From an uncultured Bacteroidales bacterium (GTDB lineage Bacteria; Bacteroidota; Bacteroidia; Bacteroidales; UBA932), in assembly GCA_900321715.1 (NCBI GenBank), contig ONXC01000012.1, positions 1 to 60,883 of the forward strand: a stretch of 60,883 nucleotides of DNA, in the 5' to 3' direction. Shown piece by piece: positions 33,954-57,691 of this stretch. The notes under the pieces were generated by a model. The model was given only the letters and a program-made list of their open reading frames with translations, was not told where the DNA came from and made no database searches. Within the stretch, counting starts at the first letter, position 1; the number at the start of each line of letters is the position of its first letter. The position numbers were made by a program, and so were the translations under genes.

Positions 33954-35126
33954 TCATTTATTATCAATGTCTTGTAAAAAACGGCACATCTTCACATACT
34001 GTTCCACCGCTTTCTCAAGGTCCGCGGCAAGGACGTTCTCATTGTCACGGTGAGCCACCTTAATGCTTCCGGGGCCGCAGATGATCTTGTGGCCGAAGCC
34101 CGTGAGGTGTGGGGCGTCACTGCCAAACGCCACGGGAGCGCTCTCAAAGCCCGGCAGCGTCACGTACCGCGCCGGCACGTCTCCCCCGCGGGCCGTGACT
34201 GCTAGCAGGGGCGCAGAGGCCCTTTCCGGAGCATTTGCCCGGACAGGGTTGCGAAGCAACGCGGAGGAAAGGGCCTCAGGCGCCCCTGCCATCCAGTCCT
34301 GAACCGCCTGATGCGAAAGGAATGTGGTGCGGAAGTACAGCCGGCAGGTAAGCTCCGGTGAGAGGATGTTCTGGGGGTTGTCGGAGTGCAGCAGGCCGAT
34401 ATTCCACGTTGTCTCCCCCAGCTCAGGGTCAAGACCCCATTCAACGGCCTTCAGGGCATTGTAGAACTGGTTAAAGAGTTCTACTGCGCTTGTTCCACAC
34501 TGCGGATAACCGCTGTGGAACGCCTCTCCTGTAAACTTCAGATCATATGACAGAGTGCCCTTTGCTGCACTGACCATCTTATTGTCCGTGGGCTCTCCCA
34601 CAATGAGGAACGGCGCCTCAAAACCAGTTTTGGAAAACGCCTTGGCACCCCAGGAACCGGTCTCCTCCCCTGCCAGGATGAGCAGCCCGAAGCCCGTGCA
34701 TCCCTTTGCCTCCAACTCCTTGCAAGCCGTGTACATCGCAAAGATCTGTCCCTTGGCGTCACAGCTGCCCCGGCCGGTTATCCGGAGGGAAGTGACGTCT
34801 CTAAAACTCTGGCCACCCTCGGCCGGATAAGAGGGAGGGGCCCACCGCAGGTGGGAGGGGTCGCGTAGCGACGTTTGGGAGACGTCACTTCCCTCCGGTA
34901 ACTCCGGAAACTCGGGGGCAATGTACGGCGGAACGGTGTCCATGTGGGTGCAGAAGACCACGCTGGGGGTGCCCCATTTGAGGAAGAGGTTCAGGGTGCC
35001 GTCACCGACTTCCATAAGCTCCTTGGAGGGGGCATCGAGGTGGTCATTGAGCCACAGGGCCATTTCCCGCTCCTTGCCGGAAGTGGAATCAATGCTCAGT
35101 ATGTCTTTGAACAACTGCCAGTTCAT
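33954..35126 (-). CDS. dapE: M20 deacylase, probable succinyl-diaminopimelate desuccinylase, with in-frame insert
   Basis: 390 residues. Dinuclear-metal M20 ligands are present: CTHMDTVPP, GSCDAKGQ, LAGEETGSWG, GEPTDN and a late His in IKVAHRDN. M20 members include DapE and ArgE; DapE is chosen because dapA, dapB, dapD, asd and dapF are neighbours. Codons about 77-115 are a 39-codon palindromic insert placed just before the metal-binding GSCDAKG, which accounts for the excess length over typical ~350-residue relatives. Confidence 0.85.
   Translation of the reverse strand: MNWQLFKDILSIDSTSGKEREMALWLNDHLDAPSKELMEVGDGTLNLFLKWGTPSVVFCTHMDTVPPYIAPEFPELPEGSDVSQTSLRDPSHLRWAPPSYPAEGGQSFRDVTSLRITGRGSCDAKGQIFAMYTACKELEAKGCTGFGLLILAGEETGSWGAKAFSKTGFEAPFLIVGEPTDNKMVSAAKGTLSYDLKFTGEAFHSGYPQCGTSAVELFNQFYNALKAVEWGLDPELGETTWNIGLLHSDNPQNILSPELTCRLYFRTTFLSHQAVQDWMAGAPEALSSALLRNPVRANAPERASAPLLAVTARGGDVPARYVTLPGFESAPVAFGSDAPHLTGFGHKIICGPGSIKVAHRDNENVLAADLEKAVEQYVKMCRFLQDIDNK
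34782..34898. repeat. Palindromic coding insert in dapE
   Basis: 117 bp bounded by near-perfect inverted arms: CCGGAGGGAAGTGACGTCTC (34782-34801, continuing 6 nt with two mismatches) and its complement at 34873-34898. Core blocks TGGCCACCCTCGGCCGGATA and GTGGGAGGGG match the ksgA copy. Read as TSLRDPSHLRWAPPSYPAEG in DapE. Confidence 0.9.
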
Positions 35127-35136
35127 CGTTTCAATA

Positions 35137-35149
35137 CAATCTTAGTCAC
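35137..35149. repeat. CAATCTTAGTCAC repeat (family 3), single copy
   Basis: One 13-mer in the gap between asd and dapE; further copies at 41.6 and 50.7 kb. Confidence 0.7.
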
Positions 35150-35151
35150 AG

Positions 35152-36141
35152 CTACCCAAGCCAGCCGTTACGGAGCAGCACCTGCGCTATCTGGACGGCG
35201 TTTGTGGCTGCGCCTTTGCGGATATTGTCACTGACGCACCACAGATTGAGGCCATTCTCTACGGAAGGGTCTCGGCGGATGCGGCCGACAAATACATCGT
35301 CCTTCTCCCAGGCCGTTATGGGCATGGGATAAACGTTATTTGCAGGGTCATCCTGAATGACCACGCCGGGCATATCGGCCATAAGTTTTACGGCATCCGT
35401 CAGTTCAAAAGGCCTATGAAACTCCAGGTTCACGCTCTCCGAATGGCCTCCCTTTACGGGGACTCGGACGGTGGTGGCGGAAACGGCGATGGAAGGATCC
35501 CGGAGGATCTTTCTGGTTTCATTGACCATCTTCATTTCCTCCTTGGTGTAGCCGTCCGGGAGGAAGGAATCTATATGCGGAAGTACGTTCAGGAATATCT
35601 GGTGAGGGAATTTGGTGCCCTTGCCGCCTGCCATTTCTGCTTCAAGCTGCTCAATGCCTTTCTGGCCGGCGCCGGTGACGCTTTGGTAGGTGCTCACAAC
35701 TATACGCTTGATGCCATAGGCCTTATGAAGCGGCGCCAGGGGCAGGACCATCTGGATGGTGGAGCAGTTGGGGTTGGCGATGATGTGATCTGTGGGCTTA
35801 AGTACATCGGCATTAATCTCCGGCACAACCAGCGGCACGGAAGGGTCCATACGCCAGTAGGAGGAGTTGTCCACCACGTAGCAGCCTATCTCCGCAAAGC
35901 GCGGCGCCAACTGGGCCGATACAGCCCCTCCGGCAGAGAAAATGGCAAGGGCGGGCTTTCGGGAAATGGCTTCATCGGCACTCATAACCGTCCACTCCCT
36001 GCCCTGAAAACGCACTTTTTTGCCCCAGGAACGCTCAGAGGCAACGGGGAGAAGCTCCGTCACCGGGAACTCGCGTTCCTCAAGGACCTGCAACATCTTT
36101 GAGCCAACCAGGCCCGTTGCACCAACTACCGCTACAATCAT
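35152..36141 (-). CDS. asd: Aspartate-semialdehyde dehydrogenase
   Basis: 329 residues. NADP-binding VVGATGLVGSKML at the N-terminus, active-site Cys in NPNCSTIQ, catalytic His in GGHSESV. Reduces aspartyl phosphate to the semialdehyde, the branch point to lysine and threonine. 25 bp upstream of dapE in the same operon. Confidence 0.96.
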   Translation of the reverse strand: MIVAVVGATGLVGSKMLQVLEEREFPVTELLPVASERSWGKKVRFQGREWTVMSADEAISRKPALAIFSAGGAVSAQLAPRFAEIGCYVVDNSSYWRMDPSVPLVVPEINADVLKPTDHIIANPNCSTIQMVLPLAPLHKAYGIKRIVVSTYQSVTGAGQKGIEQLEAEMAGGKGTKFPHQIFLNVLPHIDSFLPDGYTKEEMKMVNETRKILRDPSIAVSATTVRVPVKGGHSESVNLEFHRPFELTDAVKLMADMPGVVIQDDPANNVYPMPITAWEKDDVFVGRIRRDPSVENGLNLWCVSDNIRKGAATNAVQIAQVLLRNGWLG

Positions 36142-36164
36142 TTCATGATTATTAAATGTTTCAC

Positions 36165-36203
36165 GTTACCCCCTCCCGAAACCCCTCCCCTCGGGGGAGG
36201 GAC
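36165..36203. repeat. GC-rich hairpin between dapD and asd
   Basis: Stem CCCTCCCC/GGGGAGGG (36183-36190, 36194-36201; loop TCG) preceded by a second CCCCCTCCC block. No T-run, so not a clear terminator; the sequence resembles the GGGAGGGG block of the palindromic inserts. Confidence 0.5.
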
Positions 36204-36980
36204 TTATCTTAACAAATCTTCTAAGTGAATACTGCCCTCCGTCTTGCTGTCACGGTACTTCACAATCACCGGGCAGTAAAGGTGAACGCCGCTCTCAAGT
36301 GGCTTGCCGCCGCGGACGATGGGCTTGGAGCCGCTCACAACCACAGCTCCGGCGGGGACCACTATGCGGCCATCGGCATTCCTCTTTATGAATTCATCCT
36401 TTGTTGCATCGTAGATGGCGGTAGATGAAGTGATTATGACACCGGAAGCAATCACTGCGCCCTCCTGGACGATTGTGCCCTCGTAGATACCGCAGTTGCC
36501 GCCGATGAACGCGCCGTCCTCTATGATTGTGGGAAGCGCGCCGGCGGGTTCAAGCACGCCGCCAATCTGCGTTGAGGCCGATATATGGATGTGCTTTCCC
36601 ACCTGGGCGCAGGAGCCGATGGTGACGTGGCTGTCAACCATAGTGCCTTCGTCTACATAGGCGCCCACGTTGACATAGGCCGGGGGCATTATGATGGAGC
36701 CGGGGGCCATATATGCGCCGCGACGGACGGAAGTGCCGCCGGGAACTATGCGGACGCCGTCACGGGCCTTGAACTGCCTTACCGGGAAGGTGTCCTTGTC
36801 AAAGAAGGGGAACTGTCCCTGGGACATTTCCTTTATGGCGCCAAGGCGGAAGCCCGCAAGGATGATTTCCTTTACCTCACGGTTTACCTGCCAAACGCCG
36901 TCTACTTTCTGTGCCACGCGGACTTCTCCCTTTTCAAGGGCGTCCATCAGGGCGTTGAATTGCTGAAGAGTTACGTCCAT
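36204..36980 (-). CDS. dapD: Tetrahydrodipicolinate N-succinyltransferase
   Basis: 258 residues. Left-handed beta-helix hexapeptide repeats (PGSIIMPPAYVNVGAYVDEG; AQVGKHIHISASTQIGG) with the DapD-specific MVDSHVTIGSCAQVG region. Transfers succinyl from succinyl-CoA, which defines the succinylase route here. Its ATG overlaps the TGA of dapA. Confidence 0.95.
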   Translation of the reverse strand: MDVTLQQFNALMDALEKGEVRVAQKVDGVWQVNREVKEIILAGFRLGAIKEMSQGQFPFFDKDTFPVRQFKARDGVRIVPGGTSVRRGAYMAPGSIIMPPAYVNVGAYVDEGTMVDSHVTIGSCAQVGKHIHISASTQIGGVLEPAGALPTIIEDGAFIGGNCGIYEGTIVQEGAVIASGVIITSSTAIYDATKDEFIKRNADGRIVVPAGAVVVSGSKPIVRGGKPLESGVHLYCPVIVKYRDSKTEGSIHLEDLLR

Positions 36981-37852
36981 CAGAAAAGGTCTTTCAGGGT
37001 TTGCTGTAAAAGGGCTTCCGTTGCCGCCGTAGCCCTAACCAAAGGCAATCTGAGGCTGTTTTCCATAAGGCCAAGCTGGGCCATTGCGGCCTTGGCGGGG
37101 ATGGGGTTGGGCTCCACGAAGAGCGCCTTGAAAAGGGGCTTAAGGCGGGCGTCCATCCTTGCGGCCTCATCAAATTTACCGGCCTCCAGGGCGTGGCTGA
37201 AATCGGCCATGGCGGAAGGGAAAACGTTTGAGGCCACGGAGATTACGCCATCGGCGCCTTGCTTCATAAGCTCAAGGGTGTCTTCGTCGTTGCCGGAAAG
37301 GAGCTTGAAGCCTTCCGGGCGGCCGGCCATGATCTTTAGGCTCTGCTCAATCTTGCCGGAGGCTTCCTTTATGCCGATGATATTGGGAACGTCCTTAGCC
37401 AGTGCCAGCACGGTTTCAGGCTCAATGTTGGAACCGGTGCGGCCGGGGACGTTGTACAGCACGATGGGCTTTTCCGTTGCCCCTGCCACGGCCTTGAAAT
37501 ACTCATACATACCCCTCTGGGGCGGCTTGTTGTAGAAGGGAACCACCACCAGGAAGGCATCGGCATCCTGCAGGAGGCGGATGTTGTCAAGGGTGCCCTT
37601 CACTGAATTGGAGCCCACACCGGCCATTACGGGACGGCCCTTTGCGTGCTGAAGCGTCACCTCCAGGACCTGGAGTTTCTCCGATTCAGAGAGGGTGGGA
37701 GTTTCACCTGTAGTCCCAAGGGGAACCAGGAAATCTATGCCGGTTTCTACCTGCCAGTCTACCGTGGCGGCAAAGGACTCATAGTCCACTTCCCCACCCT
37801 TGAACGGGGTGAGAAGCGCGGTGCCGCAGCCATGTAAGTCAAGTGCTTTCAT
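36980..37852 (-). CDS. dapA: 4-hydroxy-tetrahydrodipicolinate synthase
   Basis: 290 residues from ATG 37850-37852 (MKALDLHGCG). Schiff-base Lys in GIKEASGK, Tyr in VVPFYNKP, and VPGRTGSN. Condenses pyruvate with aspartate semialdehyde. The open frame continues upstream to 38809 through the divergent aminotransferase, but the TATTTTTG box 8 nt before this ATG and the family N-terminus fix the start. First gene of the six-gene operon. Confidence 0.95.
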   Translation of the reverse strand: MKALDLHGCGTALLTPFKGGEVDYESFAATVDWQVETGIDFLVPLGTTGETPTLSESEKLQVLEVTLQHAKGRPVMAGVGSNSVKGTLDNIRLLQDADAFLVVVPFYNKPPQRGMYEYFKAVAGATEKPIVLYNVPGRTGSNIEPETVLALAKDVPNIIGIKEASGKIEQSLKIMAGRPEGFKLLSGNDEDTLELMKQGADGVISVASNVFPSAMADFSHALEAGKFDEAARMDARLKPLFKALFVEPNPIPAKAAMAQLGLMENSLRLPLVRATAATEALLQQTLKDLF

Positions 37853-37860
37853 ACAAGATA

Positions 37861-37868
37861 CAAAAATA
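37861..37868 (-). promoter_or_regulatory. -7 box TATTTTTG of the dapA operon
   Basis: TAnnTTTG with an 8-nt spacer to the dapA ATG. Confidence 0.55.
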
Positions 37869-37931: not shown

Positions 37932-37936
37932 CACCT

Positions 37937-39214
37937 ATGGATTATGAGCGCTATTTTTCGGCCGATGTCCCCTCGTTCCTGAGGTCTCCCGTACGTGAAA
38001 TCTTCCGCAAGGTGGATCTCCAGGCCATCTGTTCCTTTGCCGGAGGCTACCCCGCTGCGGTTACTTTCCCCACGGACCAGATCCCTGGCCTGGCTGCCGC
38101 CGTCTTGGAAAAATACGGCACCAGGGCACTCCAGTACGGTGCTACGCAGGGCGTTCCGGAACTCCGCGCCGCCATTGCCGCGCGCTATGGCGTTCCAGTG
38201 TCGCAGGTCCAGATCACCACTTCTTCCCAGCAGGGAATAGACGTGTGCTCCAGGGTTTTCCTTGACCCCGGAGACATAGTCCTTGCACAAAGTCCCGTGT
38301 ACCTTGGCGCCCTCCAGAGTTTCAGGGCGTACAGGGCGGAAGTGAGGGACATGCCCTCGGGGGCTTGTCCACCCCCGGACAAGTGTAGGGGGAGGGGCCC
38401 GCTGGCAGAGGGGGCGGAGGGCAAGCTTGCTTGGCCTACGGCACCTATGACAGTGGGAGGGGCCGGAACGAAGCGAAGCGAAGTGGAGTCCCCCGAGGGC
38501 ATGTCCCTCACTTCCGCCAAATTTATCTACGTTATCCCTGACTTCAATAACCCTACGGGAAAGACACTGACACTGGAGGAAAGAAAGGAGATTGTGGCCC
38601 TGGCCAGGGAACTTGATATCCTGATTGTTGAGGACAGCCCGTACCGTGAACTGCGTTACAGCGGAGAGACTCTTCCCACCCTCCGTGAACTGGCTCCGGA
38701 GCGGACGCTCCACCTTGGGAGCTTCTCCAAGATTTTTGCACCGGGGTTCAGGCTGGGATGGATTATCGGCCCGGAACCGCTTCTGGAGCAGATTTATGTG
38801 TGTAAGCAATGCCTTGACCTCTGCCCTCCGGTGCTGGACCAGTATATGGCGTGCGAGTTCCTCACTTCAGGCGCGCTTGATGCCAATCTGGTTAATACTA
38901 TTGCCGAGTACAAACGCCGGCGTGACCTTATGCTGGGTCTCCTTGAGAAGTATATGCCTGCCGGAACATCCTGGACGCACCCTGACGGTGGTCTCTTCCT
39001 CTGGCTCACACTTCCGGAAAGCATTGACACCGTGGCGCTTTACGACGAAGCACTATCGGCCGGCGTGGCGTACGTTGCCGGTTCCTTCTTCTACCCTGAC
39101 GGCAGCCACCGCAACACTATGCGCCTCAACTTCTCCTTCATAGAGGAGTCCAAGATGGAGCCGGGGATAAAACTTTTGGCAGCCGTTTTGGCTAAAGACC
39201 TGACTAATAAGTAG
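37937..39214 (+). CDS. PLP aminotransferase, probable diaminopimelate-pathway enzyme, with in-frame insert
   Basis: 425 residues, fold type I: PDFNNPTG, VEDSPYRELRY and PLP-Lys in SFSKIFAPGFRLGW. The sequence looks like the MocR/LysN-related branch. Context (dapD, dapE, dapF adjacent) points to the succinyl-DAP aminotransferase step (DapC role), which no other gene here covers; that is inference. About codons 133-194 are a palindromic insert between strand FRAYRAEV and FIYVIPDF, with no counterpart in the family. Confidence 0.85.
   Translation: MDYERYFSADVPSFLRSPVREIFRKVDLQAICSFAGGYPAAVTFPTDQIPGLAAAVLEKYGTRALQYGATQGVPELRAAIAARYGVPVSQVQITTSSQQGIDVCSRVFLDPGDIVLAQSPVYLGALQSFRAYRAEVRDMPSGACPPPDKCRGRGPLAEGAEGKLAWPTAPMTVGGAGTKRSEVESPEGMSLTSAKFIYVIPDFNNPTGKTLTLEERKEIVALARELDILIVEDSPYRELRYSGETLPTLRELAPERTLHLGSFSKIFAPGFRLGWIIGPEPLLEQIYVCKQCLDLCPPVLDQYMACEFLTSGALDANLVNTIAEYKRRRDLMLGLLEKYMPAGTSWTHPDGGLFLWLTLPESIDTVALYDEALSAGVAYVAGSFFYPDGSHRNTMRLNFSFIEESKMEPGIKLLAAVLAKDLTNK
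38335..38518. repeat. Palindromic coding insert in the aminotransferase
   Basis: Perfect 29-bp inverted arms at 38335-38363 and 38490-38518 (inner part GAGGGACATGCCCTCGGGGG). Inside: hairpin CTTGTCC/GGACAAG (38364-38383), then GGGAGGGGCC blocks and the GCGAAGCG run shared with other copies. 184 bp, longest of the family; frame stays open. Confidence 0.9.
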
Positions 39215-39279: not shown

Positions 39280-40209
39280 ATGACAAAAACGCCCCACATA
39301 TTCACCGGAGCAGGTAACAACTTCGTGGTCTATGACGGCCGGGAAGGCGGTATGGATGAGTACCGCCAGCCGGAGCGCATCCAGGCCCTTTGCCGTGAAT
39401 ACCGCACGGACGGCCTGATGATCCTTACGGAGGCCCCGGGCCAGGACTTTGGGATGGAGTTCTACAACCCTGACGGCTCCGGCGGAATGATGTGCGGCAA
39501 CGGAGGCCGATGCATAGTCGCCTTTGCCGATTACCTTGGCCTGAAATCCGCCTCAGAGGATGGTACGTGGCACTTCCTTGCCCCGGATGGAGAGCACACC
39601 GCGACGATTTTGGACAGGGCTCATACCTCCAAACCGTCGCTTCGCGACCCCTCCCATCCTGACGGATGGGCCCCTCCCTCTTACGTGGCCGAGGGTGGCC
39701 ACGGGTTTGGAGGCATAAGCCCTGCTCCAAAATGGACCGTGCGCCTCAAAATGATTGACGTCAAGGGCATAAGCAAGGCAAAGAACGGCTACTTCCTCAA
39801 CACGGGAACAAGGCACTACGTGGAGTTCCGGGACAATGTGGATGCCATTGATATTGAGCCAGAGGCCAAGCCCATAAGATGGGCCGATGAATTCCAGCCG
39901 GACGGCACCAACGTGAACTTTGTGGAGAAAACACCAGATGGCCTTAAGGTCCGCACTTTCGAGAAAGGTGTTGAGGGCGAAACCCTTGCCTGCGGCACGG
40001 GCCTCACCGCCAGCGCCATTGCGGCATACCACCACGGGATCCCCGATCAGGTCGGGGATGACGGAGAGCGTCATGCCCGGCCCCGACCGGGCATCTCCTA
40101 CCGCCTTCAATGCCGCCGCGGAGACTGGCTGGAAGTTGAATTCACCCCCTCCGGAGATGGTTTCATGGACGTTTTCCTCACCGGCCCCGCTGAACTTATT
40201 GAAAAATAA
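39280..40209 (+). CDS. dapF: Diaminopimelate epimerase with two in-frame inserts
   Basis: 309 residues, against about 265 normally. Both catalytic Cys are kept: MMCGNGGRC near residue 69 and LACGTGLTASA near 236. Converts LL- to meso-DAP. Two inserts explain the extra length: codons about 112-148 (SLRDPSHPDGWAPPSYVAEG, nearly the same peptide as in DapE) and codons about 254-272 (GIPDQVGDDGERHARPRPG). Both sit outside the active-site motifs. Confidence 0.95.
   Translation: MTKTPHIFTGAGNNFVVYDGREGGMDEYRQPERIQALCREYRTDGLMILTEAPGQDFGMEFYNPDGSGGMMCGNGGRCIVAFADYLGLKSASEDGTWHFLAPDGEHTATILDRAHTSKPSLRDPSHPDGWAPPSYVAEGGHGFGGISPAPKWTVRLKMIDVKGISKAKNGYFLNTGTRHYVEFRDNVDAIDIEPEAKPIRWADEFQPDGTNVNFVEKTPDGLKVRTFEKGVEGETLACGTGLTASAIAAYHHGIPDQVGDDGERHARPRPGISYRLQCRRGDWLEVEFTPSGDGFMDVFLTGPAELIEK
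39615..39724. repeat. Palindromic coding insert 1 in dapF
   Basis: Arms AGGGCTCATACCTCCAAACC (39616-39635) and its complement with two mismatches (39704-39723). The core between is the ksgA/dapE-type core in reverse orientation on the plus strand. Confidence 0.9.
40039..40094. repeat. Palindromic coding insert 2 in dapF (different family)
   Basis: Two adjacent hairpins: ATCCCCGA/TCGGGGAT (40039-40059) and ATGCCCGG/CCGGGCAT (40073-40094), joined by GACGGAGAGCGTC. The 15-mer GCGTCATGCCCGGCC is shared with the mutL linker. Confidence 0.8.
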
Positions 40210-41591: not shown

Positions 41592-41692
41592 ACCAAGTTA
41601 TTCAATCTTAGTCACGTTTTGGCCCTTATTCTTAACTAAGATCGTCACTGGAGACAATCTTAGTTACGTTTGGGGGCAGTTTTGTGACTTTG
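41592..41692. repeat. CAATCTTAGTCAC repeat cluster (family 3)
   Basis: CAATCTTAGTCAC at 41603 and CAATCTTAGTTAC at 41655, with an inverted ACTAAGAT between, forming an imperfect hairpin downstream of the Xre gene. The flanking TTATTCAATCTTAGTCAC (18 bp) is identical to the copy near 50671. Confidence 0.75.
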
Positions 41693-45615: not shown

Positions 45616-46695
45616 TTAGATGTGCTCAACCTCCGGATGGAGGGTGATGCCGTATTTGGATTCTATGGCCTGGATAACTTCGGTTTCCAGGCCTATGATT
45701 TCTTCCGGGGAAGCCTCCCCACTGGCGTTCACAATGACCAGCGGCTGATTCTTGAACACCTGGGCGCCACCAAGGCGCTTGCCCTTGAATCCGCACTGCT
45801 CAATCATCCATGCCGCCGGGACCTTGATCTGGTCCCCCACCTCAAAGTGCGGCACCTGGTAGTCCGGACCGTTGTCCTGACGGGCGATGTCTTTGATTCG
45901 TTCAAAGTGCTCCTTGCTTATCACCGGATTGCAGAAGAAACTTCCGGCCGATCCCGTCACCGCCGGGTCCGGCAGTTTTGCGTTGCGGATGTCGATGATG
46001 GTCTGACGGATAATCTGAGGGGTAAGGGTGGGCACCTCCCTCTTATCCGGCCGAGGGTGGCCAGAGGTTTGAGACAGTGTCTCTACACCCCTATCAGCAA
46101 GGGCCTTTCGGAGGCCACCGTAGTCCAGACGGGGCTGGGGATCACGGCTTAGGCGGTAGGTGACGGCCGTGATGATGAACCTGCCTTTCCACTCAGTTTT
46201 GAACTTGGAGGTACGGTAACCGTAAGCGCAGGTGACGGGGTCAATGTCCACAAACCGGCCTTCTACGCGGTCCCAGGCACGGATATCGGCAATGATGTCC
46301 TTGGCCTCAACGCCATAGGCTCCGATGTTCTGCACGGCGCTGGCTCCGCATTCCCCTGGGATGAGGGACAGGTTCTCCGGACCCCAGAGGCCTTCCGCGG
46401 CCGCCCACGCGCAGAAATCGTCAAAGACCGTTCCGGCGGGCAAGGTGACAAAGCACCCTCCGGCGGACGTGTCCACCCCCGGACACGGGTAGGGGGATGA
46501 TATGTGCAGCACGGTTCCGGGGAAGTCCTTGGTGAAAAGGAGGTTGGAGCCGCCGCCCATGACCATCACCGGCTGGGGCAGGGCGCCAAAGTCCATGGCC
46601 GCCAACTCTTCTTCCGACTCTATCTCAACGTACAGCGCGCATTTCACCTTCATCCGGAAGGTGTTGGGGATGGGGTAATTGGAGACCGTTTTCAT
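45616..46695 (-). CDS. murB: UDP-N-acetylenolpyruvoylglucosamine reductase with decayed inserts
   Basis: 359 residues from ATG 46695 (MKTVSNYPIPNTFRM); a start at 46725 is possible but lies in a hairpin repeat. FAD-binding GGGSNLLF, GECGASAVQNIGAYG, catalytic Ser in AGSFFCNP and final Glu in HPEVEH. Completes UDP-MurNAc after MurA. Two stretches look inserted: TSGHPRPDKREVP (about codons 208-222) and CPGVDTSAGG (about codons 70-76), both matching pieces of the palindromic elements. Confidence 0.94.
   Translation of the reverse strand: MKTVSNYPIPNTFRMKVKCALYVEIESEEELAAMDFGALPQPVMVMGGGSNLLFTKDFPGTVLHISSPYPCPGVDTSAGGCFVTLPAGTVFDDFCAWAAAEGLWGPENLSLIPGECGASAVQNIGAYGVEAKDIIADIRAWDRVEGRFVDIDPVTCAYGYRTSKFKTEWKGRFIITAVTYRLSRDPQPRLDYGGLRKALADRGVETLSQTSGHPRPDKREVPTLTPQIIRQTIIDIRNAKLPDPAVTGSAGSFFCNPVISKEHFERIKDIARQDNGPDYQVPHFEVGDQIKVPAAWMIEQCGFKGKRLGGAQVFKNQPLVIVNASGEASPEEIIGLETEVIQAIESKYGITLHPEVEHI
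46031..46072. repeat. Truncated palindromic element in murB
   Basis: Contains the left core block (CCGAGGGTGGCCAGAGGT and CTCTTATCCGG) but not the second half or matching arms; probably a decayed copy. Confidence 0.7.
46469..46486. repeat. Small palindrome in murB
   Basis: GTGTCC/GGACAC hairpin; its TGTCCACCCCCGGACA is shared with the aminotransferase insert. Confidence 0.6.
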
Positions 46696-46770: not shown

Positions 46771-48546
46771 TTACTGAGCGTTTTGAGGAGAACGCAGAGA
46801 AATCTGCAGTTCATCCAGCTGCTCCTGGTCGATCTGGGACGGGGAATCTATCATCACATCCCTGCCCTGATTGTTCTTGGGGAAGGCGATGTAATCCCTG
46901 ATTGTGTCCTGACCACCCATGAGGGCGCACACGCGGTCAAAGCCGAAGGCCAGACCTCCGTGAGGCGGGGCGCCGAACTTGAAGGCGTTGATGATGAAGC
47001 CAAACTTGTACTCTGCCTCTTCGGGGCCGATTCCAAGGACTTCGAACATACGCTTCTGCATATCGGCATTATGGATACGGATGGAGCCGCCGCCTAGTTC
47101 GTTGCCGTTGAGAACGAAGTCATAGGCGTTGGCGCAGACGCGTTCAAGGTCTTCCTTGGCATTGCTGTAGAACCATTTTTCGTGCTCCGGCTTGGGGGCG
47201 GTGAAAGGATGGTGCATGGCGTAGAAACGCTGGGTTTCGTCGTCCCACTCAAGAAGCGGGAAGTCCACGATCCAAAGCGGGGCGAACTCGCGCGGGTTGC
47301 GGAGGCCCAGGCGGCCGCCCATCTCAAGACGCAGGACGCCCAGCATTGTCTGGGTCTTGCGCTTGGCGCCGCTCATCACAAGGATGAGGTCTCCGGGCTT
47401 TGCCTCTGCGGCGGCGGCGATGGCGGCAAGGTCATCGGCCCCGTAGAATTTGTCAATGGAACTCTTGAAGGAGCCATCGGCATTAACCTTTATGTAAATG
47501 AGGCCTTTAGCACCAACCTGGGGGCGTTTTACCCACTCTGTAAGCTCATCAATCTGCTTGCGGGTGTATTCCGCGGCGCCGGGAACGGCAATTGCGCCGA
47601 TATACTGGGCGTCGTCAAGAACGCCGAAGCCCTTGCCCTTTGCGGCGGAGGTGATCTCATGGATCTTCATGCCGAAGCGGACATCGGGTTTGTCCGAGCC
47701 GTAGTTATCCATTGCGTCGTACCAGCTCATACGTGGGAGAGGGTTGGGGATGTCTACGCCGAGGACGTTCTTGAAGAGTGTCCTCATCATGCCTTCAAAC
47801 ATGTTCAGGACGTCTTCCTGCTCCACAAAGGACATCTCACAGTCTATCTGGGTGAATTCCGGCTGGCGGTCTGCGCGAAGGTCTTCGTCACGGAAGCAGC
47901 GCACAATCTGGAAATAGCGGTCATAGCCGGCCACCATTAGGAGCTGCTTGAAGGTCTGGGGGCTCTGAGGAAGGGCATAGAACTGACCGGGGTTCATACG
48001 TGAAGGGACCACAAAGTCACGGGCGCCTTCCGGGGTGGACTTGATGAGATAAGGAGTCTCAATTTCCATGAAGCCCTTGGAGTCAAGATAGTTGCGGCAC
48101 TCGTGGGCCACCTTGTGCCTGAGGGCCAGGGCGCGCTGGAGCGGACCTCGGCGGAGGTCCAGATAACGGTACTTCATACGGAGGTCCTCGCCGCCGTCAC
48201 TTTCTTCCTCAATTGTGAAGGGCGGGGTAACGCTCTTGTTAAGGATATTTATGGCCGATAATTTAATCTCGATGTCACCAGTGGGCATCTTGGCGTTTTT
48301 GGCCTGGCGCTCTACAACCTCACCGGTGGCCTGGATCACGAATTCACGGCCGAGGGAGGTGGCGGTTTCCACAAGCTCTGCGGGGGCATCGGCCTCAACT
48401 ACAAGCTGCGTGATGCCATAGCGGTCACGGAGGTCAATGAATGTCATTCCGCCAAGTTTGCGGGCTTTCTGGACCCAACCGGCCAGGGTAACCTGCTGCC
48501 CTTTGTTCTCAATGCGGAGCTGCCCGCACGTGTGTGTTCTGTACAT
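46771..48546 (-). CDS. aspS: Aspartyl-tRNA synthetase
   Basis: 591 residues from ATG 48544-48546 ([16 protein letters not shown]). Class II motifs: [18 protein letters not shown] (motif 2 region) and [14 protein letters not shown] (motif 3), with the bacterial GAD insert. Its first 24 codons and start region are duplicated exactly 1.7 kb upstream. It now follows the small lipoprotein gene by 14 bp and no nearby TAnnTTTG box is seen, so expression probably depends on read-through from the promoter at 50282. Confidence 0.96.
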
Positions 48547-48549
48547 ATT
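48479..48549. repeat. 71-bp direct repeat, copy 1 (aspS 5' end)
   Basis: Identical over 71 bp to 50186-50256. Spans 3 nt upstream of the aspS ATG and its first 24 codons. Confidence 0.95.
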
Positions 48550-48560
48550 ATGTGTTTTAA

Positions 48561-48983
48561 TCAATTTGCGTTTTGTGTAATACTGATGGCTGCTCCGGTA
48601 TCGCAAAGATATGTTTGTATTCTTGCGTTCCTTTTAACACCTGTGTCATTATTTTCAACGAGTATATTCAGTAACAGGTTGGTCTCATCATAATCTATTG
48701 TAAGCCACTCAGCTTTGATTGTATCGTATAATGTCAAATGAGTGTCGGGATCTATTCCAGAGTAAGAAACACTTACAGTAACGTCATCGAAGTATATGGC
48801 GCTAATATCAAATCTTTTGTCACTTGATACCGTGATTACTTGTTCGTCAGAAGATAGATTAAAAGCATCTTGAGAGAGATGAATTCGATCCTCCTCCGGC
48901 ACCCGTCCTGCAGGAGGGCGACAGGCGGTAAATACTAGCACAAAAAAACAAGCGCAAATGAGATATTTGTTAATTTGTGTCAT
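48561..48983 (-). CDS. Small BACON-like lipoprotein beside C10 peptidase
   Basis: 140 residues: signal [13 protein letters not shown], then a beta-rich domain ([40 protein letters not shown]) resembling a BACON-type Ig fold. Overlaps the C10 peptidase gene by 14 nt. In Bacteroides, C10 peptidases often pair with small inhibitor-like or BACON-like proteins; an inhibitor or surface-partner role is inferred. Confidence 0.7.
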
Positions 48984-50253
48984 ATGTAATCACATAAAAA
49001 CTTTTAATAAAACTATATATATCATTTGGCAGAGTTCCAGGATCATAACTGGATAATCCAGAACGTTGTGACGGGTCAAAAATGCCAATATTGAAATATC
49101 CATCCCCTGCACCATACCAACCCCAATTGATGTGGTAGGTATTAACGTAATAGCCATCCACAACCCAAGCGTGTCCTTCATTATTACTTGTGGCTCCGCT
49201 GACGTATGCCGGATGCCCATAAAGTAATTGTTGGCTCACCTTTAAGCGAAGATCATTGTTGAAAGTGCAACCATAATGCAATTGTACGTTTGAATAACCG
49301 TAGTTTTGTAAAGTGATTTTTGCGCGGACATCATAAGCTCCAGATTCTCCTGGTGCATATGTTACGTTGCAATTACTGGGAGAGCCTAGCGCCTTCAAGA
49401 AATGAGCAACTTGATCAGCTCCCGACAGAGTGCCATTTGAGCCAGGGTGGGGATATGTCCTGACGGTTTTCATCTCTGACCAACTGCACGTCTCTCCGTC
49501 AAAAACCATTGTTGAAGAGTATTCTTCAAATGCCATTATCTGCGCAATGGCTGTTGGGACACAGCCCGTGGGACAATTTGTTGGCACATATTTGTCAAAC
49601 GGAGACCACTGTCCCCATTTAGTCATAAGGAGCGGCGAAACAATGCCGCCCGGGCCTCCTCCGCCGATTATTTCCCAATCGGGCGGCGCAATCACGTTTG
49701 CCATTCTCTCCATGGCCGCGGAAAGTAAAGCCTCGGGAATGAATGTGGTGTCACTGTCGTCCTCTACGACGGGAATATCTTCCATATTGTATGTATCGGC
49801 GTTAATTACTTGTTCGGCTTTGGAAAAATGGTTCAGGTTAAGGTGTCCTTTTTCAGTAAGGCACACAACGTCCATTCCTATTCTTTTGTTGGCCGACAAA
49901 ACGGCGTAACCACCGTCTTCTCCAAAATTGATGACGTAGAATATATCTCCAGTCAAGATAGTATTTGCCGATTTACAAGGTGTTGTCCTGACGGTAAATG
50001 AAGAGGTGTCGGCAAGATTCCATTCATTGCCGACTTTGGTTGCATTCAAGCCGTCAATAAACTCCTGAAGCGAATTAACAGCCTCGCTATAAGGTATTTG
50101 TTCTGAATAGCGTGGCTGCGCTGTGTCAGGCGTTTCTAATTTTTCAGCGCACGCAGAGCAGAACATTGCAAGAAACAAAAGACATCCGGCCAGGGTAACC
50201 TGCTGCCCTTTGTTCTCAATGCGGAGCTGCCCGCACGTGTGTGTTCTGTACAT
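48970..50253 (-). CDS. C10 (streptopain-like) cysteine peptidase lipoprotein with aspS-derived N-terminus
   Basis: 427 residues. Catalytic Cys in CPTGCVPTAIAQIM (about 230), His in NNEGHAWVVDGY (about 361) and NWGWYGAGDGYF: a complete C10 domain with a ~190-residue pro-region. The first 24 residues ([20 protein letters not shown], then LAG) are those of AspRS; the fused CLLFLAMFCSAC supplies the hydrophobic and lipobox part. The original start was evidently replaced. Promoter TAACTTTG at 50282-50289. Confidence 0.88.
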   Translation of the reverse strand: MYRTHTCGQLRIENKGQQVTLAGCLLFLAMFCSACAEKLETPDTAQPRYSEQIPYSEAVNSLQEFIDGLNATKVGNEWNLADTSSFTVRTTPCKSANTILTGDIFYVINFGEDGGYAVLSANKRIGMDVVCLTEKGHLNLNHFSKAEQVINADTYNMEDIPVVEDDSDTTFIPEALLSAAMERMANVIAPPDWEIIGGGGPGGIVSPLLMTKWGQWSPFDKYVPTNCPTGCVPTAIAQIMAFEEYSSTMVFDGETCSWSEMKTVRTYPHPGSNGTLSGADQVAHFLKALGSPSNCNVTYAPGESGAYDVRAKITLQNYGYSNVQLHYGCTFNNDLRLKVSQQLLYGHPAYVSGATSNNEGHAWVVDGYYVNTYHINWGWYGAGDGYFNIGIFDPSQRSGLSSYDPGTLPNDIYSFIKSFYVITYDTN

Positions 50254-50256
50254 ATT
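50186..50256. repeat. 71-bp direct repeat, copy 2 (C10 gene 5' end)
   Basis: Exact copy of 48479-48549. It includes start codon and codons 1-24 and is followed upstream by a promoter, so this may be the original aspS front end. Confidence 0.95.
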
Positions 50257-50281
50257 TTGAGTTTAGTTTTTTCAGAGTTCA

Positions 50282-50644: not shown

Positions 50645-50670
50645 CGCCAGCCCGCTTTAGACCATCACTT

Positions 50671-50760
50671 ATTCAATCTTAGTCACAAATTACCCTAAAA
50701 ACGTGACTAAGATTGTCTTTCTATACAATCTTAGTCAAGAAATCGGCCCAAAACGTGACT
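50671..50760. repeat. CAATCTTAGTCAC inverted repeat cluster (family 3)
   Basis: CAATCTTAGTCAC (50674-50686) and its exact inverse GTGACTAAGATTG (50703-50715) form a 13-bp stem; another CAATCTTAGTCA at 50726-50737. Lies between convergent genes. Confidence 0.85.
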
Positions 50761-50783: not shown

Positions 50784-51695
50784 TTATGCCAGCAGGTTGG
50801 TGAGCGCCACAAAGTCCTCTACGGAAAGCTGTTCCGGGCGCTGGGAGAATACGGGCTGGGAGAGGAAGGCGGCTAATTCTTCGGCCGACCACCCTTCGCG
50901 AGTAGCTTTAGCAGCGGCAAGAGGCTTGAGGGGATTACGCATCATCTTCCGGCGCTGCCCAAAGGCCGTTTTCACAACGGTCTTGAATAGCTTTTCGTCG
51001 CAGCCAAGGTCTGTGCGGCCGTTGCGGCGCAGCCTTATCACGGCGCTCTCCACCTTGGGCGGGGGCGCAAAGCAGCCAGAGCCAACGGTAAATAGATATT
51101 CTATATCATACCAGGCCTGAAGAAGCACGCTCAGGATGCCATAGGTTTTGCTTCCGGGCTTTTCTGCAATGCGCTCTGCAACCTCCTTCTGAACCATTCC
51201 CACAACCTGCGGGATGTGGTCTTTGTGGTCCAGGACCTTGAAGAAAATCTGTGAGGAGATGTTGTAAGGGAAATTGCCAATTACGCAGAAGTCTCCGGGG
51301 AAGATCCGCTCCAGGGGAAGGGTGAGGAAATCGGCCTCCATAAGACGGCCCTGCATGCCCTGGAAATGCGTGAGAAGGTACTCTACGCTCTCCGTATCTA
51401 TCTCCACCAGCTTCAGATCAATGTCTTCTCTTTCCAGCAGGTACTGCGTAAGTACACCCATTCCCGGGCCAACTTCCAGGACCGGTACGGGCATATGTTC
51501 GCAAACCTCTGGCCACCCTCGGCCGGATAAGAGGGAGGGGCCCGCAGCCGAAGGCTGTGGGAGGGGCCGGAGCGAAGCGGAGGCGGTTTGCGAACATATG
51601 CCCGCACCGATCTCTAACGCATCAACTATGGCCCTAGCCACTTTCTGGTCTGTGAGGAAATGCTGCCCAAGGGCCTTTTTTGCTCTTACTTCCAT
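50784..51695 (-). CDS. ksgA: 16S rRNA dimethyladenosine transferase with in-frame insert
   Basis: 303 residues, about 40 more than usual. KKALGQHFLTD at the start, SAM-binding VLEVGPGMGVLTQ, NFPYNISSQIF (catalytic NxPY) and PPPKVESAV. Dimethylates two adjacent adenosines near the 16S 3' end. Residues about 31-69 are a 39-codon palindromic insert just before the SAM motif, with no counterpart in other KsgA proteins. TATCTTTG lies 4 nt before the ATG. Confidence 0.96.
   Translation of the reverse strand: MEVRAKKALGQHFLTDQKVARAIVDALEIGAGICSQTASASLRPLPQPSAAGPSLLSGRGWPEVCEHMPVPVLEVGPGMGVLTQYLLEREDIDLKLVEIDTESVEYLLTHFQGMQGRLMEADFLTLPLERIFPGDFCVIGNFPYNISSQIFFKVLDHKDHIPQVVGMVQKEVAERIAEKPGSKTYGILSVLLQAWYDIEYLFTVGSGCFAPPPKVESAVIRLRRNGRTDLGCDEKLFKTVVKTAFGQRRKMMRNPLKPLAAAKATREGWSAEELAAFLSQPVFSQRPEQLSVEDFVALTNLLA
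51488..51604. repeat. Palindromic coding insert in ksgA
   Basis: 117 bp with perfect 20-bp inverted arms CGGGCATATGTTCGCAAACC (51488-51507) and complement (51585-51604). Core shares TGGCCACCCTCGGCCGGATA and GTGGGAGGGGCCGGAGCGAA with the other copies. 39 codons, no stop in the ksgA frame. Confidence 0.93.
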
Positions 51696-53659: not shown

Positions 53660-54813
53660 CTGTACTCCATTATTGCGTCAAAGAGAAGGTCCCCGATGAG
53701 GCGGTAGCCGGCGGGGGTGAAATGCACACGGTCTCCCTGCATAAGGCCGGCCTCTTTCCAGGCGTCGGAGGAGCCGTAGCCGCCCATAACCTCATACATA
53801 TCCCAGAACACGCCGTCAAATTCATCGGCCAGTTCACGGAAGGCCTTTTCAACGTCTGAGGTATGCGGGTTCACGTGTTTTCCCTTGTAATAACTGTCGT
53901 TGATGCCGGAAAAGAGCACGGCGCAGCGGGGATTCACGTCCCGCACCTGACGGAGTAGAAAGCGGTAGTTTTCCTTGAATCGGCGGGAATCAAAATCGTG
54001 GCCCTGGATATCGTTGATGCCGATAGAGAATATCACAAGGTCCGGCATCACGCGGGAAAGGTCCTCGGCCCAATGGGAGCACTTGGCCCATGAAGAGGTG
54101 GATGCACCGTTGATTCCGGCCTCGCTGTAGGTGAAGCCGCCGCCGGTGCGGTCAAGGTAGAGACCGCGAAGGGTGTATCGGCCCTCTCCTTTGAAGAAGA
54201 CCTGCAGCCAGTCCGTGTAGTACGGGAGGTCGAAATGGGTGTACTGGTGGCCTTTGACGCCATAAACAGTGTCCCGGCCCTGAAGCAGGAGGACGGGCTC
54301 CATCTCCCCTTCCCCAAGGACGTCCACGCGGTTGAAGGCGTAGCTCTGGCGGAGCACGGGACCGCCGTTACGGGCAAGGTCTACGGCTACGCGGGAGGCG
54401 GTGTCCTTCACCTCTGCGGCAATGCCGGTGAGGCCGAGGTCAGAGCCATCGGCCTTTATGCAATTGTGGGATTCCCAGAGGCCGGAGTATGAGGTTGTGT
54501 AGCTGACGGGGGTGTTGGTAAGGGCGGCCGCGAAGGGGAAAACCAGGCCCCTGCCGCCGTCAAGGCCGTATCTTAAAGACAGGAAGCGGGTGCGGAGGCG
54601 GTCACTCCAGGTGCCGCCCTGGACGTGGGAGCCACCAACGTGGAGCACCCTTACGTCTCCGGTGCCCCAATGCACAAGGGAGTCCAGCTTTTGCCTGAAG
54701 GCGGTAAAGGAGGCCGACTCCCCCTCAAGCCCGCGCGGAATGAGCACGGGAGGGCGCTGGGCTGCGCACGGCACTGCCATGGCAAGGAGGACTATAAGGA
54801 GGAGACGCTTCAC
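53656..54813 (-). CDS. SGNH/GDSL-hydrolase-fold periplasmic protein
   Basis: 385 residues with a signal peptide (LLLIVLLAMAVPCAAQ). SGNH blocks: VGGSHVQGG, SIGINDIQG and DRVHFTPAGYRLIGD. Partner of the MBOAT protein; presumed O-acetyltransferase or esterase acting on a cell-surface glycan. Confidence 0.87.
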   Translation of the reverse strand: MKRLLLIVLLAMAVPCAAQRPPVLIPRGLEGESASFTAFRQKLDSLVHWGTGDVRVLHVGGSHVQGGTWSDRLRTRFLSLRYGLDGGRGLVFPFAAALTNTPVSYTTSYSGLWESHNCIKADGSDLGLTGIAAEVKDTASRVAVDLARNGGPVLRQSYAFNRVDVLGEGEMEPVLLLQGRDTVYGVKGHQYTHFDLPYYTDWLQVFFKGEGRYTLRGLYLDRTGGGFTYSEAGINGASTSSWAKCSHWAEDLSRVMPDLVIFSIGINDIQGHDFDSRRFKENYRFLLRQVRDVNPRCAVLFSGINDSYYKGKHVNPHTSDVEKAFRELADEFDGVFWDMYEVMGGYGSSDAWKEAGLMQGDRVHFTPAGYRLIGDLLFDAIMEYR

Positions 54814-56192
54814 TTGACCAGGCGGTAATAATCGTAATAGGTAAGGAGGGAATTGGAGAGGGCGTCTCCAACCTTCTGGGCGCCGGCGGGGGTGAAGTGG
54901 ATGTAATCAGGCCCGGCGTAAGGGGGATTGTGCTTAACCCACTGACCCATGGAGTTCTCCCCTCCCATCATGCGGAAGAGGTCCCAGTAGGCTGCGTCGT
55001 TCCTGAGGGCCGTGGCCTTGAGGGAATCCACAAGTTCCGGGAGGCGGGGCCAGGTAACAATGCGGCCGCCCACGCTCTTTCCCATATCGGACGGGCCGAT
55101 AAAGAGGATGCGGGCATCCGGGGCAACCTCATGGAAGTACTGGATCTGGGCCTCTATCTGCTCCTGGTACTGCTCGATGACCTTGGTGTTACGGACCACA
55201 GGCATGTAATTTCCGCCAAACTGGAGGATGATGAGACTGGCGTCCATCATTTCCAGGCAATCGGCCATAAGAGGCTTGTTGATGCGGGTGAAAATGGTGC
55301 CTGAGCAGCCCCTGAGGGGGATGTTGTCTACCTGGACGCCGGAATCAGGATCGGCCGATATGCCGTAAATTTCCGCGTTGCCGCTGAAGCGGAGAACCGC
55401 TTTCTGGACTGGCCGGCCAAAGTGCCAGGTGACTTTGTGAAGCCCGCTCTCGCCAACTTCCTCTACGGGAACGGGGCGGAGGGTATCCGACACGGCTTTG
55501 ACGGAGAATCCGCCGCTGGGGCGTCCGTAGAGGACGGTGACGGCCTCAAAGCTGTGGACGCCTTCACGGGCGTTCTTGTTGCTGGTGGAACGAAGGGTTA
55601 CGGTGCCGCCGCCGGTGAGCGTAACCACCTGGGCCAGAATGCCGTAGCGGCTATGACCGGCGCGGACGGTGGTGGAGTCTCCGTACATGGTGTACTGGAC
55701 AAAACCGCCATTTGCAGCCTTGGAGATACTGGCCGACGGAACGTTGCTGAGAGCCGGGAAAAGGCCGGTGCCGTTGCCGCCGAACCTTGCCTGGAGATCC
55801 TGACGGAGGTCCTGGGAAATGCGGTCAAGTTCTATCTGGGAGTCTCCGTAGTGGACTACGCGGCTGAGACCCTTTTTCTCAAAGTCCTTGAAGACGGGGC
55901 GGAAAAAGTTTATGTCATCCCCTGGAAGATAGATGCGGTCAGGGTTTTCCGTGAAGAATTGCCTGTAGTACTCCAGGGTATCCTGCTTCATCTTGAAACG
56001 GGCCTGAACGGCATTGAGGACGGAGTCTACGTCTACCTTGGTCTCATTTGCATCCCTCAGGGTTGCCTGCATATTGGAGAAACGCAGGGTGAGCGGCCCG
56101 GCGGCGATGCCATCGGCCGGCATAACCAGCCACAGCACGCCCAGGGCGGCGAAAACGCTGAGAAGGAATATGAGTACCTGACGGGCTTTCAT
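54810..56192 (-). CDS. Second SGNH-fold periplasmic protein
   Basis: 460 residues from ATG 56190-56192 (MKARQVLIFLLSVFAALGVL, an uncleaved or signal anchor). Motifs HYGDSQIELDR, LQFGGNYMP and DYIHFTPAGAQ. The open frame to 56510 runs backwards through pheS and is rejected; TAACTTTG lies 8 nt before this ATG. First gene of the O-acetylation operon, 4-nt overlap with the next. Confidence 0.87.
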   Translation of the reverse strand: MKARQVLIFLLSVFAALGVLWLVMPADGIAAGPLTLRFSNMQATLRDANETKVDVDSVLNAVQARFKMKQDTLEYYRQFFTENPDRIYLPGDDINFFRPVFKDFEKKGLSRVVHYGDSQIELDRISQDLRQDLQARFGGNGTGLFPALSNVPSASISKAANGGFVQYTMYGDSTTVRAGHSRYGILAQVVTLTGGGTVTLRSTSNKNAREGVHSFEAVTVLYGRPSGGFSVKAVSDTLRPVPVEEVGESGLHKVTWHFGRPVQKAVLRFSGNAEIYGISADPDSGVQVDNIPLRGCSGTIFTRINKPLMADCLEMMDASLIILQFGGNYMPVVRNTKVIEQYQEQIEAQIQYFHEVAPDARILFIGPSDMGKSVGGRIVTWPRLPELVDSLKATALRNDAAYWDLFRMMGGENSMGQWVKHNPPYAGPDYIHFTPAGAQKVGDALSNSLLTYYDYYRLVK

Positions 56193-56200
56193 AAGGGGTA

Positions 56201-56208
56201 CAAAGTTA
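56201..56208 (-). promoter_or_regulatory. -7 box TAACTTTG of the O-acetylation operon
   Basis: TAnnTTTG 8 nt before the ATG at 56192; divergent from the pheS box 14 bp away. Confidence 0.6.
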
Positions 56209-56221
56209 CGCAAAAAATGGT

Positions 56222-56229
56222 TATCTTTG
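56222..56229 (+). promoter_or_regulatory. -7 box TATCTTTG of pheS
   Basis: TAnnTTTG 21 nt before the pheS ATG at 56251. Confidence 0.6.
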
Positions 56230-56250
56230 CAAGTTATTAAAATTAACGCA

Positions 56251-57285
56251 ATGAAAGAAGCCATTGAAAGAATATTCAAAGAGCTGGATGAACTGAAAGC
56301 CACCAGCCAGAAAGAGGCCGAAGAAGCCCGTATACGTTTCCTTGGAAAGAAAGGTGAAATCACGGCCCTTATGGACGAGTTCCGTAACATTGCCCCGGAA
56401 CTCAAGAGGGAGTACGGCAAGAAGCTCAATGAACTCAAGCAGTACACCATTGCAAAGATAGAGGAATTGAAGGCCTCCGCAGAGACCGCAGCCGTGGCCG
56501 ATTCCCCCAAGGAGGATCTTTCAATGCCCGGAGACGCTTTCCCGCTGGGTTCGCGTCATCCCGTTTCCATTGTCCGTCAGCAGATTGTGGATATCTTCCG
56601 CAAGTTTGGATATGACGTGGCAGAGGGTCCTGAGATTGAAGACGACTACCACGTTTTCGAGGCTCTGAACTTCCCGCCCAATCACCCCGCGCGTGAGATG
56701 CAGGACACCTTCTTCGTGAGCACCGGCCACCTCAATCCGCTCCTTCTCCGCACCCACACTTCTTCCGTGCAGGTGCGCACCATGGAAACCCAGCCGCTGC
56801 CCATCCGCGTGGTGTGCCCCGGCCGCGTTTTCAGGAACGAGGCAATATCGGCCCGCGCGCACTGCATCTTCCATCAGGTAGAAGGACTGTACATTGACAA
56901 GGACGTCACGTTCGCAGACCTTAAGCAGGCCATCCTGCTGTTTGCCCGCGAGATGTTTGGTGCCGATACCCAGATTCGTATGAGGCCCTCCTACTTCCCG
57001 TTCACGGAGCCTTCCGCAGAGGTAGACGTTTCCTGCAACATCTGCAAGGGAAAGGGCTGCAACATCTGCAAGGGCACCGGCTGGCTGGAAATCATGGGCT
57101 GCGGCATGGTAGATCCAAACGTCCTCAAGGCCAGCGGAATTGATCCTTCCCAGTACTCCGGATTCGCATTCGGTATGGGCGTTGAGCGTATCGCAATGCT
57201 CAAGTGGCAGGTCAACGACCTCCGCCACTACTTTGAGAACGACATGCGCTTCCTCTCAGAGTTTGCCACCGCCACGGAAGTGTAG
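56251..57285 (+). CDS. pheS: Phenylalanyl-tRNA synthetase alpha subunit
   Basis: 344 residues from ATG 56251 (MKEAIERIFKEL); a start at 56227 would overlap the -7 box. N-terminal coiled coil, then class II catalytic core: HPAREMQDTF, LLRTHTSSVQ, RVFRNEAI and GFAFGMGVERIAML. A CNICKGKGCNICKG cysteine stretch sits in the core. pheT is not adjacent. Confidence 0.96.
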   Translation: MKEAIERIFKELDELKATSQKEAEEARIRFLGKKGEITALMDEFRNIAPELKREYGKKLNELKQYTIAKIEELKASAETAAVADSPKEDLSMPGDAFPLGSRHPVSIVRQQIVDIFRKFGYDVAEGPEIEDDYHVFEALNFPPNHPAREMQDTFFVSTGHLNPLLLRTHTSSVQVRTMETQPLPIRVVCPGRVFRNEAISARAHCIFHQVEGLYIDKDVTFADLKQAILLFAREMFGADTQIRMRPSYFPFTEPSAEVDVSCNICKGKGCNICKGTGWLEIMGCGMVDPNVLKASGIDPSQYSGFAFGMGVERIAMLKWQVNDLRHYFENDMRFLSEFATATEV

Positions 57286-57299
57286 TTTCCGGGGGGGGG

Positions 57300-57344
57300 T
57301 GACAGAACATAACGTCGCAGGTGACAGAACATAGCGTCGCAGGT
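57300..57344. repeat. 22-bp tandem repeat after pheS
   Basis: Two units of GTGACAGAACATA(A/G)CGTCGCAG, following a run of nine G. They start an array of GTCGCAGGT words. Confidence 0.85.
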
Positions 57345-57474
57345 CTGAAAAAATGGTCGGACCTGCGACACTTTTTGGCTTCAGTGGCCGATTTGCGTCG
57401 CAGGTGACGCCAAAAACACAGACCTGCGACACTTCACCTCCGGACCAGCGACGGTTTGGCCCCGGACCCGCGAC
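57314..57474. repeat. GTCGCAGGT array with two hairpins
   Basis: GTCGCAGGT or its inverse at 57314, 57336, 57361 (inverse), 57397 and 57422 (inverse), plus two variants (ACCAGCGAC, ACCCGCGAC). 57336-57369 forms a perfect 10-bp stem followed by ACTTTTTGG, which may terminate pheS; 57397-57430 forms a second. Confidence 0.8.
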
Positions 57475-57557
57475 AATGGCACATCCATGATGTCTTGGGG
57501 CAATGATTCACATGTTTTCAGCCGTTTTTGCGTTATTCGTTGCCCTATAAGCGGAGG

Positions 57558-57691
57558 GGAGGTGTTGGTGGCAAAACCTGTAGCCGCCCGCGGCTTCATG
57601 AGCGGGAGGGGCCCAGAGCCTGCGCGAAGCGCGGCGAATGGGAGGGACGAAGTGAGCGAAGCGAACGAAGGGTTTTGACATCAATACCTCC
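57558..57691. repeat. Intergenic palindromic element
   Basis: Arms of 21 bp (57558-57578 and 57671-57691, 18 matches) around a core with GGGAGGGGCCC and GAAGTGAGCGAAGCG. Same plan as the coding inserts but outside any gene. Confidence 0.8.

Follow-up and report, generated by a model that had tools for sequence, protein, structure and literature searches.

Palindromic elements in Bacteroidales genes share a core, and their stems follow the insertion site

Palindromes of about 100–150 bp that leave the surrounding open reading frames intact and occupy solvent-exposed parts of the encoded proteins have been described as the Rickettsia and Wolbachia palindromic elements (RPEs and WPEs), and the same gene sites are targeted by different groups of them (PMC3767692, PMC10969869). 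Here we describe a stretch of 60,883 nucleotides from an uncultured Bacteroidales bacterium (contig ONXC01000012.1; hereafter the window), in which dapE, an aminotransferase gene, dapF and ksgA each carry a palindromic insert. While the usual hallmark of mobile DNA is a pair of fixed ends recognised by an enzyme, these inserts have a shared middle and ends that follow the site. We consider them a family of small, non-autonomous, RPE-like mobile elements of rumen-type Bacteroidales, in which template switching keeps the stem perfect and builds part of it, with a probability of roughly 0.55. A first-pass annotation of this DNA had named the RPEs as the nearest analogy, and this holds for the short palindrome, the in-frame position in unrelated genes and the reuse of the same sites, although one class of elements, the B-type, is longer (184 nt). 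Unlike RPEs and WPEs, the elements belong to another phylum, share a core and carry hairpins on C-rich linkers. In addition, their outer stem is site-specific and may contain host bases, a claim absent from the parts of the RPE reports that we consulted. As the likeness is one of description, we say that the element works like an RPE, not that it is one. Open-paper literature searches turned up no paper on this palindromic element.

Two further lines of work are relevant, again as described in the consulted parts of the sources. In coding DNA of yeast, template switching between inverted repeats homogenises the arms and inverts the spacer (PMC8604942), and it has been argued that perfect stems are created and repaired by reverse-complement copying (PMC8794818). 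The present family resembles such mutations in its homogenised arms (locus L007) and in spacers inverted between constant arms (L014, L007, L020). However, template switching as described there works on existing short repeats, whereas in the present family its substrate would be a mobile element, which it would also lengthen. Perfect inverted repeats also occur in working genes of Nematomorpha mitochondria (PMC6649704); both arms of those palindromes encode conserved protein, in contrast to the Bacteroidales inserts, which lie in loops and have a mobile core.

The inserts with an A-type core occupy 34782..34898 in dapE (minus strand; arms 34782-34807 and 34873-34898, 26 nt, 92% paired), 39608..39731 in dapF (plus strand; arms 39608-39635 and 39704-39731, 28 nt, 82%) and 51480..51612 in ksgA (minus strand; arms 51480-51507 and 51585-51612, 28 nt, 93%), with lengths of 117, 124 and 133 nt, respectively. 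The B-type insert of the aminotransferase gene, 184 nt long, spans 38335..38518 (minus strand; arms 38335-38363 and 38490-38518, 29 nt, 100%). The inverted arms that had been annotated at these four loci are thus present, at 26–29 nt and with 82–100% pairing. A copy consists of an arm ending in AAACC, hairpin 1, CCCCTCCC, hairpin 2, GGGCCCCTCCCTCTTA, hairpin 3 (NNNGGCC GAGGGT GGCCNNN) and an arm beginning with GGTTT. One strand can be folded into an outer stem of about 25–30 bp around three hairpins on constant C-rich linkers (CCCCTCCC, GGGCCCCTCCC), which are common to the A-type, the B-type and further core types. The first linker was found in 121 of 130 distinct cores, while the constancy of the second is partly a matter of construction, because it was included in the search pattern; on the opposite strand, four G runs occur in 126 of the 130. 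Folding, which had been recommended as a check, gave strong structures for the dapE, dapF and ksgA inserts as single-stranded DNA (z = -7.4, -8.0 and -7.2), and for each of them none of 200 dinucleotide shuffles folded as well. The shared core blocks are present, and the core recurs throughout the metagenome-assembled genome (MAG) to which the window belongs (Bacteroidales, 2.04 Mb, 29 contigs, completeness 80.6%): GGCCGAGGGTGGCC occurs at 17 places and GGGCCCCTCCC at 26, versus one place for each reversed control. In total, either GGGCCCCTCCC or the core of hairpin 3 is present at 29 loci of this genome, several of them broken.

Arm statistics were calculated for 132 of 156 copies, after removal of copies with an arm score below 14, copies at contig edges and duplicate arms. 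The arms had been thought to differ completely from locus to locus. They are indeed locus-specific, but they follow a degenerate consensus, roughly GGRGGGTATnTnTTCnnAAACC, which persists in copies from other genera. Its sole strongly fixed end is AAACC/GGTTT, in line with the annotated lack of a long fixed terminal repeat. Watson-Crick pairing between the arms amounts to 0.83–0.99 through position 24, except for 0.80 at position 23, and falls beyond it to 0.55 at position 28 and 0.30 at position 30. In a covariation alignment of 41 out of 54 eligible copies, 94.4% of the cells are paired; shuffling gave 64.4%, and slid controls did not exceed 43.5%. The outer stem comprises 984 cells in this alignment, of which 401 changed on both sides and 2 on one side, while 37 are unpaired and 4 are G.U.

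Such strong covariation of stem and hairpins would also be expected of a structured RNA that is selected for pairing and maintained by compensatory substitutions. Covariation alone, however, does not prove a functional RNA, and the near absence of G.U is predicted by templated copying rather than by stepwise RNA compensation. Stems at the same site are either nearly identical or unrelated, without the gradual drift that compensation would leave. An open frame spans 85 of 133 scorable copies, but the other 48 lie outside any such frame, and the copies showed no shared gene context. A search for Rfam families near the element at 11 loci yielded no match; a single hit below threshold (E 0.076) lay at a distance of 1.4 kb to the core. 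We therefore regard a selected RNA as very unlikely.

The stems are largely decoupled from the cores. For the 246 unlinked pairs of copies whose cores are at least 90% identical, inner-arm identity over 19 positions is 0.478 (0.463 for those 15 that share a genome); 15 orthologous pairs with such cores reach 0.709, and 3,000 random pairs 0.452. At a core identity of at least 0.95, the arms are 0.79 identical in 9 orthologous pairs versus 0.48 in 49 others, the pairs being non-independent. These values bear on the view that the family is an ordinary element of the type of miniature inverted-repeat transposable elements (MITEs) or repetitive extragenic palindromes (REPs), moved by a Y1/RAYT transposase, with arms of its own whose free positions drift with compensation. 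Like MITEs and REPs, the elements are short, non-autonomous, structured and present in many copies, and Y1 transposase domains were detected in 7 of 7 genomes searched. The fixed AAACC/GGTTT ends, the consensus across genera and the arms shared by some unlinked copies would also suit it. In contrast to MITEs and REPs, however, the terminal repeat common to the family is fixed over some 5 nt and otherwise degenerate, and arms that are nearly constant between orthologs are unrelated between nearly identical cores. Moreover, none of the 20 Y1 loci fetched from the seven genomes is flanked by the element, unlike the arrangement of REPs with RAYT genes, and inspection of eight aligned sites by eye revealed no target duplication. 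An ordinary MITE or REP is thus unlikely. The core motif lies within about 1.5 kb of a Y1 gene at one of the 20 loci, about 0.8 kb beyond the gene. Four Y1/RAYT-like genes (L367, L378, L380, L382) have palindromes of another family, TGGACCAGGTCCA, within about 1 kb, and are possible partners of that family.

The relatives closest to the window genome (G341, the genome RGIG3360 that holds L168; G342, the genome Tb.RUG.384 that holds L153; G318; and G325) match the window at about 70–96% over long stretches. We compared the same sites for 63 copies with arms scoring at least 15, in 217 directed comparisons; G325 contributed none in the stretches fetched. The element is absent from the partner in 96 comparisons, and element-like sequence is present in 121. 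Arm identity in the latter is bimodal, with 57 comparisons at 0.85 or above, 59 below 0.7 and 5 in between. Of the 59 with low identity, 32 have a reversed core, 23 a similar one and 4 an unclear one, a mixture that independent insertions would give. The comparison shows repeated insertion at the same spots in relatives. The site measures 20 nt or less in ten directed comparisons. At L014, L007 and L020 the core is reversed within the same stem, and at L007 one species has changes on both arms, as in arm homogenisation.

The four inserts of the window fared differently in this respect. They had been described as absent from relatives, which applies to dapF, where the G325 protein aligns in two pieces and skips query residues 114-148, and to ksgA, where G342 has only 16 nt and no element; a short KsgA loop (e.g., HGGLPT) was found by text pattern in 6 of the 20 members with a readable loop among 30 of the genus. 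It does not apply to the aminotransferase gene, since the four closest relatives hold other sequence there: G318 has about 200 nt, the remaining three have 46–58 nt, and TGGACCAGGTCCA palindromes are present in G341 and G318. In G341, ksgA carries the same core with other, perfectly paired arms, whereas dapF in G342 and G318 has the core reversed and arms that are only partly alike. Unrelated cores at shared sites had been named as a finding that would speak against one palindromic family; they occur at dapE, since the core of G341 and G342 at this site is of another type. We interpret the dapE difference as the result of renewed insertions into a loop that tolerates them. The loops that bear inserts vary in length among relatives.

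Unique arms around a shared core would likewise result if the core inserted into the centre of palindromes that were already there. However, a search of 1,077,633 bases yielded 37 core-free palindromes (arms of at least 13 nt, loop of 3–14 nt), mostly terminator-like, and none stands at the empty sites, so that this origin is extremely improbable. In other species, the loops of ksgA, dapF and the aminotransferase carry palindromes of other types (TGGACCAGGTCCA, CCCGGCCCCGACCGGG, ATCCTGAGGA), and these loops are hot spots for several palindrome families. Two copies of G000, L006 and L010, are hybrids with a G342-like left half and a G341-like right half; they look as if two site alleles had recombined, although an assembly error is possible.

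Host sequence was recognised in the outer part of some arms. The left arm of the aminotransferase insert (plus strand), GGCGGAAGTGAGGGACATGCC, encodes AEVRDMP, with a host-like stretch of 13–20 nt. It is homologous to AEVREIP of G318 and AEVQEIP of G341, both without this element, and YRA[EQD]V stands at the same place in six further genus members with a readable loop (7 were readable by text pattern among 30 members). The right arm is a perfect inverse of the left, and at its position the relatives have other residues before KFIY. Even here the one-sidedness is unclean, because the copied side resembles relatives as well: the outermost 8 nt of the right arm match G342 at 6 positions and G325 at 5. 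In murB of G342 and G318, the outer 13 nt of a B-type element coincide, as read by eye, with the host codons of LTPQI. Smaller cases, also by eye, are L061, L016, L008 in G342, and L017, where the upstream gene supplies 7 nt from its end. A similar pattern was seen for L029 and L114 against G318, where 25 of the 26 nt of the L029 left arm are present without core or right arm, but in G318 an older copy may have left a remnant. Across 17 arms, the outer 8 nt match an element-free relative at 4.22 positions versus 2.41 by chance (0 of 20,000 shuffles as high); after removal of the five comparisons with possible remnants, the values were 3.64 and 2.39 (13 arms, p 0.0002). At the L164 site of G325, which has no element, an inverse copy, CTATTGGATC, stands after the conserved gene end ATGATCCAATAG; inverse copying of host DNA therefore occurs by itself in this genus.

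The first-pass annotation had proposed that one arm is host sequence and the other its copied inverse. In its strict form, an element made of the core alone would take about 25–30 nt of host flank as one arm at each insertion and copy it inversely by hairpin priming or template switching. The decoupling of arms and cores agrees with this, as do the outer arm bases that match element-free relatives and a weak correlation of GC content between arm and flank (Spearman 0.20, p 0.02, 130 copies). At the aminotransferase gene and L029, the host-like stretch extends as far as GGGGG, the sequence at which the B-type core has its fixed end. However, L001 in G341, L038 in G342, L164 in G000 and G318, and ksgA in G342 are empty or nearly empty and leave no room for a 25-nt arm, so that the inner arms at these loci were not prior host DNA. 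The degenerate consensus of the inner arms also speaks against it, and the stretch at L029 in G318 may be left over from an older insertion. No third copy of the inner arms was found in the surrounding 3–8 kb. Copying of the arms from elsewhere within this distance was rejected as well, since the best 21-nt match averaged 13.8 both for a locus's own arms and for arms of other loci. The proposal thus stands for the outer part of some stems, at the aminotransferase gene, at murB and in the statistics of the outer 8 nt, but it fails as a rule, and its strict form is rather improbable. A looser version, which we put forward tentatively, is an element without ends of its own that carries the core only and builds a new stem at each insertion: a first arm would be made or acquired, and the template-switching replication of the cell would copy the second from it. 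From the base runs one may speculate that the constant C-rich linkers give rise to a four-stranded structure, which would arrest the replication fork and so set off the switching.

For the RPE-like element with a template-switched stem, we propose the following course. The element would enter perhaps through a HUH/Y1-type enzyme acting on single strands. Template switching during replication would then copy one side of the hairpin onto the other, which would make the arms perfect, flip the core and lengthen the stem, as host flank next to one arm would be copied to the far end of the other. The proteins probably tolerate the insert due to its position in variable loops. Since close relatives provide, for the same loci, sites that are empty, cores that are flipped and host sequence that was copied in part, it can now be tested whether template switching in replication is able to build the ends of a mobile element, and also in what way proteins gain new peptides from palindromic inserts.

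Several observations weigh against this course. All genomes compared are MAGs. Stem arms and copies were chosen by Watson-Crick score, which biases against G.U, and the non-pairs in the stem are mostly other than G.T. Of the 85 copies spanned by an open frame, 49 have a length that is not divisible by three. Across all 8,541 unlinked pairs, arm and core identity are weakly correlated (Spearman 0.12), and some unlinked copies have shared arms, up to 0.95 over 19 nt (L070/L144, L064/L152), from which we conclude that inner arms travel at times. No enzyme could be linked to the element, as none of the 20 Y1 loci is flanked by it. Template switching accounts for the upkeep and extension of the stem, not for inner arms that differ anew from site to site and are absent from the empty sites.

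Regarding its distribution, the element measures about 115 to 190 bases across the family and lies within genes without disrupting the frame or in short intergenic gaps. The exact core CTCCCTCTTANNNGGCCGAGGGTGGC occurs in at least 118 stretches of the GTDB species-level genome collection. According to their titles, these are MAGs of Bacteroidales or Bacteroidia, mostly derived from ruminants, with one Lachnospiraceae exception among the matches listed. This exception, L142, has the exact core in contig CADBFP010000056.1 and may be misbinned. Within the taxonomic family of the window genome, a core match with at most two mismatches was found in 15 of 199 genomes and 4 of 25 genera. Half elements were seen at L019, L013 and L039 (G000), the truncated core being identical in L019 and L039.

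Besides the four annotated inserts, the window contains two further traces of the element in murB, a broken A-type copy without one arm (46026-46085, plus strand) and a fragment that resembles hairpin 3 of the B-type core (46465-46497, minus strand). An intergenic copy with a further core type lies 3' of pheS (57558..57691, minus strand), with imperfect arms at about 57558-57578 and 57670-57691. A second, unrelated palindrome family is found within dapF (40036-40098), where it reads GIPDQVGDDG...HARPRPGIS; G325 has a longer version, and G341 and G342 are without it. A repeat of 82 nt, 96% identical, is present at 48476-48557 and 50183-50264, so that the start of aspS also opens a second open reading frame (48970-50253, minus strand), which we take to encode a protein resembling a secreted C10-type peptidase. 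Intergenic repeats starting with TATTCAATCTTAGTCA, partly inverted, lie at 41599-41664 and 50670-50760. At 9373-9418, 11438-11483 and 57755-57800 lie three palindromes that are all of the same kind (TTACA..TCTACCAGAA), perfect over 21 bp, with 4-nt loops and a terminator-like appearance.

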